Assembly: GCF_026151205.1 (NCBI RefSeq) | Contig: NC_087078.1 | Location: 12,197,118 to 12,261,117 of the forward strand | Source of the DNA: Bolinopsis microptera | Taxonomy: Eukaryota; Ctenophora; Tentaculata; Lobata; Bolinopsidae | DNA length: 64,000 nt | Direction of reading: 5' to 3' | Shown: one piece after another, positions 18,501 through 21,500 of the stretch | Numbering within the stretch: the stretch's first letter is position 1 | Layout of the letters: each line of letters begins with the position of its first letter | Notes under the pieces: model-generated | What the model was told of the DNA's origin: nothing | What the model saw: only the letters and a program-made list of their open reading frames with translations | Database searches by the model: none | Translations under genes and position numbers: made by a program

Positions 18501-21500
18501 TTTGGTAACATTCCCAATTTTGATCATAAAGAATACTATTTAACCTGTGCACGTTCAAGAACTTATAACGAACATATGGCTAGCAAGAACTACTGTCTTG
18601 AACACACTAAACCGCTATTCACTGAGCAGAAAATTATGAACCTGGAGAATCTGCACATGTACCATACATTTTTTTAATACTTTCAATTGTTTTAATACTT
18701 TCAACACTACTATATAACAAATAATTTGAGGACCCCGAACTCAATTTTGATTCTCTACTGACTCTGCTGATCTGCACTGTTTCACTTTGTAAAAGAAGTG
18801 CGCAATGATCGGAGAAGGTGGTTTTGATGATGAGGGTAACAGGTCCTCAATCTCGTTACAGGATGATACGCCAAAGAATGACAGGAATGTTAGCAAAGAT
18901 ATGTTATCCCCGCAACGTTTCACACCTACCCTGAACTCATCCACATCCTCTGAAAGTACTCAACAGCGACAAGGTAACATTCTTCAATACCAGTTTGCCT
19001 ACATCAAAGACGGCACTTGTAACACCTGTAATGATGTTCAAGCTAATGACACTGCTCTTACCTGCTTTTTGTGTAAATCGTCATTTCATGCTGTTTGTCG
19101 AGATGCTGATAAAGATAGGATCAATAATGCTGTAATCTGTCCTCGCACTTTCTTCAAAGCATACTCCGACAGAAACGCAACCAAGGGTGTTAACAGTTCC
19201 AGATTTGGGACTTTTACGTTTGTGTGTAATGTCTGCAAGACACACTCTGAACAGAACTCCGCAGTCAGTGCCGAAAGTAAAGTCGACCTGATTGACAGGC
19301 GAGTAGATAATCTGACCCAATCTATGGAGGACATGAAGGGTTTACTTATGAAAGTTGTGAATATGAAAACATCTCCGGACAAAACTGAAATTTCTTCTCC
19401 TCCATCTCCAGCACCAGTTGCCCCTTCATATCGCTCTGTATTAATCATGTCCAGCAAAACACCAGAAAATCAAGCAAAAGATCACCAAGAAGAAGTTGAC
19501 AAAATCATCAAAGACAACGCCATTCATGCTGACAAACGGTATGTCAACAAGAACGGGGACATTGTGGTTGTGTGTCCGACAACGGCTGACAGGGAAAATC
19601 TTGTCAAGAAAGTATCCCAGCAACTTCCAGAAATGAAAACGCACCAGCCACCAGAACGTTTGCCCACAATCTCTGTTGCTAACCTTGCTGATAATTATTC
19701 TGAAGAAGATCTAGAAGACCTGCTCCTTCAAGCTCACCCCAACATTAAGGCATTAAAATCCCAGGGTGAAACATTTTCTGTACTAAAAGTTAAACCTCAG
19801 ATCAAAAACAGCAGCAAGCATCAAGCTACTATACGAGTTAGTAACAATATCAGGAAAATCATAGAACAACAGGGAGATCGGCTATACATCAGTTCGTTTA
19901 GTTGCAAAGTTTATGATCAATTTCATGTAAAACGATGCAACAACTGCCAAGGTTTTGGACACTACAGGTCGGAGTGCGAATCAGAAAAAGCTATTTGTGG
20001 TTATTGTTCCAAGAATCATACGTCAGAAGATTGTCCAGAAAAGAAAACTAATAGTCGTATTTCATGCTGCATTAACTGCTCTAAGGGCAAGTATCGGGAT
20101 GAAAGAAACACACACACGGCATTTGATAGGACATGTCCAGCTTATGTTGCTGAACAGCAGCATCTCCGCAAAACTATCAATTACTACAGTTCAAAAAACT
20201 TGTAAGCAGTGGTCTGAAATCCTCTCCGGCGGAGATTCTTGGCTGTTGCTGGAATGTGAGATCTCTCAATAATAAGATTCAACCAATCATGGAATCTATA
20301 ATCGACCAAGGAATCTCTGTCCTTTTTGTCACTGAGACTTGGCTCACCAGCATGAAGAATGATGTTACTGCTACCATCAAGTCTTACGGCTATAACTTGA
20401 TTCACTACATCAGGAAAGACTCCGCTAAATGCAGAGGCGGAGGAGTTGGAATTATTTACAATTCAAGTGATTTGAACCTTACTCCTGTGTTTGATAAGTG
20501 TGGAGATACGTTTGAAGCAGTTTTAGGCAAATTTCGAGACTCATCGGGTGATACTGTCCTCTGTGCTTGTGTTTACCGACCAGGGTCATTGACTGATGTA
20601 TTTTTTGAAGATTTGGATGAGTTTATTGGGAACATATTCATGAAATACAAGAAGTTTTTAATCTGTGGTGATCTTAATATTCATTTGGATGATCATAAAT
20701 CAAGAAACACGGCCAAACTGACTGAAGTATTGGCCAGCTATGGACTGCATCAATACGTGAGAGATCCAACTCACAACAAAGGACATATTCTGGATGTTGT
20801 AATCTCCTCCCATCAGATAGTCAATCCAAAGAGTGTCACAGTAGACTCGCACACCTCGGAAATGTTCCCAAACTGTGACCATTTCCCGGTTACTTTTAGC
20901 CTCACAAAAACAGTTGCAAGCAATCTCAACAAGAAAAAAGTTATCACATTCAGAAATGTCAAAGAAATTGACAAAAATTGTTTTGCGGATAATCTTGCTG
21001 AGGAATTGGTTACTGTAATGGATCCTGAGGGTCTATCACAAGCTGAAATGCCGTCATTTGAAAGCCGCATCAGCCTATACAACTCTAAGTGCCTAACTGT
21101 GCTGAATAACCATGCTCCTCTCCTCACAAAGGAAATCAAAGAACGTAAGTCTGCCCCTTGGTTCGATGGTGAATATAAAGCACTTAGAAGCCAAAGAAGA
21201 AAAGCCGAGACAAAGTGGAAAATCTCCGGATCTTTAACTGACAAGAAACACTATGAATCAATCAGAGAGCAGTGCACAGAACTCTCAGACAGGAAGAAAC
21301 ATGAGTTTTTCAAAGTCGAATTCATAAAGCATTCCTATTCTTCTAAGAGTCTTTTTAGATTTGTGGACACCTTTCTTGATCGGGATAAAAGCATTGTGTT
21401 GCCTTCGTCGGAGTCTCTCAAGGACACAGTCGAAAACTTTAACGTATATTTTCAGGAGAAAATAAAGGCAATACGAAATAACTTTGATCATGTGGAGTCT

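Follow-up and report, generated by a model that had tools for sequence, protein, structure and literature searches.

A conserved in-phase slippery heptamer points to programmed −1 frameshifting as the route to ORF2 in a LINE lineage of Bolinopsis microptera

ORF2 of a LINE found in the window, a 64,000-nt stretch of Bolinopsis microptera DNA (G000:C7:12197118-12261117), is very probably expressed by programmed −1 ribosomal frameshifting. A sequence-only reading of the junction had proposed that a −1 slip links ORF1 to ORF2, and the proposal is now supported by the conservation of a slippery heptamer and of its phase, and by the absence of an AUG at which ORF2 could start ahead of its endonuclease core. 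Comparison of the window's element with other LINE families of the same genome makes it probable that the whole lineage reaches ORF2 in this way. Across this lineage, the heptamer would have been kept down to about 26% endonuclease identity and exchanged once for another slippery sequence (Y CCU UUU), with no conserved RNA stimulator and with a fusion product that has no protease to cut it.

The element occupies approximately positions 18689–23385 of the forward strand. Its 5′ limit was taken from the starts of locus matches, which fall at 18685–18695 or 18726–18729 in 19 of the 29 other loci, and its 3′ limit, an ATT-rich tail, was read from the sequence only. ORF1 extends from stop to stop over 18793–20205, with the first ATG at 18805 and the TAA stop codon at 20203–20205. 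It carries a PHD-like finger, the match to which scores below the curated cut-off, and CCHC knuckles read by eye. The ORF2 open frame, 984 aa from stop to stop (20154–23108), is offset by −1 from ORF1 and, entered by a −1 slip, would cover 20199–23108. It contains an APE-type endonuclease and a reverse transcriptase, both matched above curated cut-offs, and the reverse transcriptase matches the solved LINE-1 ORF2 and R2 chains. No protease or integrase domain was seen in ORF2 by domain search. By its architecture the element is a putative CR1/L2-like LINE. The element is multicopy and some copies are 5′-truncated.

Two open frames flanking the element, at 18114–18677 and 23354–23710, resemble two pieces of another LINE-like element, and the LINE looks as if it had been inserted into the latter. 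Just 3′ of the LINE, a foldback at 23820–24569 is made of nested inverted repeats, with 168-nt arms 96% complementary and 67-nt arms 94% complementary. Long GA-type simple repeats are present at 10078–10463 and from 11387, and the window contains no Rfam match at gathering scores.

The 3′ end of ORF1 reads TCA AAA AAC TTG TAA. The last base of TCA and the two following codons form the heptamer A AAA AAC, located at 20193–20199 on the forward strand, in the ORF1 phase and 3 nt before the ORF1 stop. The ORF2 frame is open from 13 codons before the heptamer. The arrangement is that of a −1 frameshift site, with a slippery sequence in the zero-frame phase ahead of the zero-frame stop, and with a long open −1 frame that begins at or before it. 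The endonuclease core starts with WNVRSLNNK at 20250–20276, and the first ATG in the ORF2 frame (20289–20291, same strand) lies downstream of this motif. The coordinates and phase of the heptamer given in the sequence-only reading were confirmed, as was its statement that a −1 slip there enters ORF2. The same holds for the in-frame ATG at 20289, which leaves ORF2 without an AUG before the endonuclease core. For WNVRSLNNK, the start at 20250 was right and the end, given as 20273, had to be corrected to 20276.

Conservation was assessed in the window's own 264.65-Mb assembly. The junction has 34 DNA matches in this genome, 30 of which were obtained as loci; among these loci, 28 show at least 97% identity. 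A further set (L031–L060), falling mostly in the same places as the first 30, was excluded from the count. In 28 of the 30 own-family loci the heptamer remains whole and in the ORF2 frame. It was lost through indels in L028 and L029, while L024 retains it and has a substitution that creates an ORF1 stop codon just before it. The genome contains 27 exact copies of a 21-base stretch surrounding the heptamer. These copies are so alike that conservation within the family is, alone, weak evidence.

More distant families were drawn from three endonuclease queries, using for each the best 150 scored matches, of 1031, 872 and 933 candidates. Places were chosen for their endonuclease identity and for extending to the N-terminus, while their junctions were still unseen, and 54 further places of the genome were read (20 + 13 + 20 + 1 new, the other six of the last seven pieces overlapping earlier ones). 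With the window's own, 13 families were distinguished: own, F2, F4, F5, F6, F7, F8, F9, F10, F11, F12, F13/14 and F15, where F13 and F14, 98% alike, count as one. Endonuclease identity between families ranges from 26 to 68%. The F15 query brought up no clearly new family among its best 150 scored matches, judged by identity and place only, and families beyond the matches listed may exist. In several of the families, many copies share an almost identical endonuclease and retain long open ORF2 frames; several LINE families may thus have been recently active side by side in the same genome. Searches of viral contigs, genome contigs, plasmids and phages gave no usable LINE relative outside this genome, but one match of 17 residues in viral contigs and a weak one, 31% over the reverse transcriptase, in a Salmonella plasmid.

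All 13 families, as judged from the representatives read, place ORF2 in the −1 frame with respect to ORF1, and 11 of them have A AAA AAC in the ORF1 phase at the ORF1/ORF2 junction. The sequence-only reading had proposed a comparison with other copies, and the heptamer and its phase are thus kept both within the window's family and between families. By individual places, the heptamer is in the ORF2 frame at 44 of the 54. Two of these, L102 and L104, carry a stop further into ORF2; L113, with an extra A that joins the two frames, is another of the 44; and several, e.g. L063, L065, L068 and L077, have a decayed or truncated ORF1 upstream. The ten remaining places comprise six F5 or F7 copies; L066 and L080, which have no readable junction, L080 being an old relative of the window's family; L072, where the −1 frame is interrupted before the endonuclease; and L097, where the last base of the heptamer is changed. 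The bodies of eight ORF1s of the same genome contain a single in-phase A AAA AAC in 3928 other codons, and the chance of finding it in a 17-codon overlap is about 0.4%. Given this rarity and its presence in 11 of 13 families, the recurrence of the heptamer is not due to chance. All 13 families come from one genome, and the statistics treat them as independent though they share descent.

Could the heptamer be a by-product of a Lys-Asn peptide kept near the end of ORF1 for protein function, its letters being supplied by codon bias? Lys-Asn is indeed present in the 11 heptamer families, and in most cases it follows Ser. However, in all 11 families with Lys-Asn at the junction it is encoded by AAA AAC, and the codon before it ends in A. 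Since F5 and F7 have no Lys-Asn at the junction, every family with this pair there has the heptamer. Nine of 14 representatives have TCA as the preceding codon and the others CAA, CGA, GCA (two) or ATA, so that the residue is mostly Ser and otherwise Gln, Arg, Ala or Ile. The residue varies while its last A stays, which indicates that the letters are kept and not the peptide; nucleotide conservation beyond the coded peptide is a mark of −1 frameshift sites. In the ORF1 bodies of eight representatives, AAA accounts for 64% of Lys codons, AAC for 43% of Asn codons and codons ending in A for 27%. The joint expectation is 0.076 per family, or 5e-13 for 11 families if independent, an optimistic figure because of shared descent. 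A matched control was provided by the Asn-Lys pair among the first residues of the endonuclease core, about 65–90 nt downstream, whose codons vary: AAC AAA is used in 4 of 11 families (Fisher p of 0.004 against the heptamer for the pair, 0.035 for either codon alone). Finally, in the alignment of F11–F15 the 7 heptamer columns are all invariant, whereas four of the next ten or so positions vary. Conservation of the peptide is hence an extremely improbable explanation. Slippage along the A run by an RNA polymerase or reverse transcriptase, adding one A in some transcripts, would fuse the frames without any slip of the ribosome. A genomic copy of F2 (L113, G000:C7:10283254-10283453) is a natural fused variant in which one extra A places ORF1 and ORF2 in one frame, and L029 and L097 have seven A. 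Such slippage would require no particular codon phase and no final C, yet both are kept in 11 of 13 families, and it would be of no use to F5 and F7, where the junction lacks an A run. Phase and final C, together with the heptamer's apparent exchange, argue against transcriptional slippage, which we regard as highly improbable.

Termination-reinitiation, in which the ribosome would end ORF1 and restart on the nearby ORF2 as in SART1, would make the heptamer incidental. The SART1 precedent involves an overlapping stop-restart site (PMC5972666). An AUG overlapping or adjoining the ORF1 stop in the ORF2 frame is absent from the window's family and present in one family of 13, F7, as ATGA. In seven families the heptamer is followed by the ORF1 stop at a distance of 0, 3 or 6 nt, and F2, F4, F8 and F10 have an in-frame AUG between the heptamer and the endonuclease, features that fit a restart; in F15 an in-frame AUG lies 5 codons upstream of the heptamer. 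On the other hand, no AUG lies between the nearest preceding stop and the endonuclease core in the own family, F6, F9, F11, F12 and F13/14 (6 of the 11 heptamer families), nor in F5, which has no A AAA AAC. The families F9 to F14 have an ORF2 frame that is blocked 1 to 3 codons before the heptamer. Moreover, the ORF1 stop is exactly 48 nt after the heptamer in F11, F12, F13/14 and F15; the stop has moved and the heptamer has stayed. Reinitiation leaves the conserved letters and phase unexplained, and as the general route to ORF2 it appears improbable; F7 and the AUG-bearing families may use it as a second route. Initiation of ORF2 at a near-cognate codon between the heptamer and the endonuclease would dispense with the AUG. 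Such codons are found in most representatives, and the window's element has a CTG at 20214, 7 codons past the heptamer. Most of these codons fall at positions that the families do not share, however, and F12 has no CTG, GTG, TTG or ACG in this interval. Non-AUG initiation also gives no reason for the heptamer, and we consider it quite improbable. Programmed −1 frameshifting is the reading that we retain.

In the representatives measured, the 48-nt ORF1 tail of F11–F15 (L083–L088, L094–L101, L103–L109) overlaps the start of the endonuclease.

The two families that have no A AAA AAC at the junction, F5 and F7, are sisters (support 98/97) and stand beside F4 (82/85), so that the loss requires only one event. 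Near the end of ORF1, in phase, F5 has C CCU UUU and F7 has U CCU UUU, both of which are in a table of slippery sequences for flaviviruses (PMC3835772). This is suggestive only of an exchange of A AAA AAC for another slippery heptamer (Y CCU UUU): any X XXY YYZ occurs in phase 13 times in the 3928 ORF1 codons (0.33% per codon), the chance of one in about 20 codons is approximately 7%, and U CCU UUU is not strictly of the X XXY YYZ form. An in-phase A AAA AAC inside the F7 ORF1 was also considered as a slip site and ruled out, the −1 frame meeting a stop within two codons. In F7 copies (L075, L076, L092, L093) the ORF1 stop overlaps an ATG of the ORF2 frame (AAATGA). In view of this ATGA overlap, reinitiation may serve F7, possibly as a switch toward stop-start reinitiation.

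A stem-loop or pseudoknot downstream of the heptamer is usual at −1 frameshift sites, though not always required. The sequence-only reading had included in the signal a TCTCC-GGC-GGAGA hairpin at 20223–20235 and a possible outer AGCA/TGCT stem at 20205–20208 and 20247–20250. These letters and positions are correct, and a possible 10-bp stem, pairing 20205–20214 with 20241–20250 on the forward strand, encloses the hairpin and begins 5 nt after the heptamer. The folding energy of the own junction is no better than that of shuffled sequences (z of −0.38, −0.56 and −0.38), and in 11 of the 30 own-family loci the hairpin is cut from 5 to 4 bp. Single-sequence folds of the 14 representatives gave shuffle z values from −1.1 to +1.8, none of them significant. 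In a crude pseudoknot scan, shuffles did as well in 5/60 cases for F8, 9/60 for F10, 14/60 for the own junction and 60/60 for the other 11. The alignment fold of F11–F15 reached −0.76 kcal/mol and revealed no significant conserved structure. Among the simple local structures examined, none gives a common stem-loop or pseudoknot at a short distance past the heptamer. The hairpin and the outer stem, neither conserved nor better than shuffles, are therefore to be dropped as a shared part of the signal, the hairpin being ruled out by the shuffles, the pseudoknot scan and the alignment fold. Two possibilities are left: a bare site that works with low efficiency, or a stimulator of another kind, e.g. 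long-range pairing or the nascent peptide.

Ribosomes translating ORF1 would arrive at A AAA AAC with the Lys and Asn tRNAs in the P- and A-sites, and these tRNAs would slip back one base onto AAA AAA. Translation would then continue as ORF1-KKLVSSGL...-endonuclease-reverse transcriptase, giving a gag-pol-like fusion of low abundance. Most ribosomes, not slipping, would terminate at the UAA 3 nt later, leaving the ORF1 protein in excess. From the conserved junction we infer the slippage itself, its rate and the fusion as the working ORF2 product. Because no stimulator was found, slippage may be of low efficiency, and this would suit an element needing little ORF2 protein.

How LINEs express ORF2 is an old question, and in the elements studied the answers have been reinitiation, unconventional initiation or 2A-like skipping. 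At retroviral AAAAAAC sites the heptamer has the same phase as here, and the reverse transcriptase is reached through the −1 frame. AAAAAAC, the heptamer of the LINE junction at 20193–20199, is the −1 frameshift site of many retroviruses and related elements, among them MMTV, intracisternal A particles and HTLV-I (PMC3835772). The present element differs from these in being a non-LTR element, with no conserved stem or pseudoknot and with no protease or integrase domain seen in ORF2. SART1 and LINE-1 are two-ORF non-LTR elements, as here; ORF2 of SART1 is translated by termination-reinitiation, and the same has been proposed for LINE-1 (PMC5972666). There the restart is at the ORF2 start codon, whereas the window's LINE has no AUG before the endonuclease core. 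For LINEs of Paramecium, in which ORF2 is also in another frame than ORF1, +1 frameshifting or reinitiation has been suggested (PMC5405496); the direction is opposite to the −1 of the window's LINE, and no slippery heptamer is named in the accessible part of that paper. Some LINEs of the CR1/L2 lineage have a type I ORF1 with a PHD finger (PMC4120745). They share with the window's LINE a PHD-like finger and CCHC knuckles in ORF1 and an endonuclease-reverse transcriptase ORF2; the likeness is one of architecture. The word frameshift is absent from PMC4120745. Frameshifting is mentioned for the gag of HeT-A in a review that also discusses TART and LINE-1 (PMC5009743). Among the matches listed in the open-licence literature, no paper evidently describes a slippery −1 site in a LINE.

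If programmed −1 frameshifting is indeed the route to ORF2, a LINE lineage would have the retroviral solution, a convergence between the two great groups of retroelements. A fusion of ORF1 with the reverse transcriptase would be predicted in the ribonucleoprotein. The 13 families would then offer a natural series on slippery sites without a known stimulator and on the exchange of one heptamer for another.
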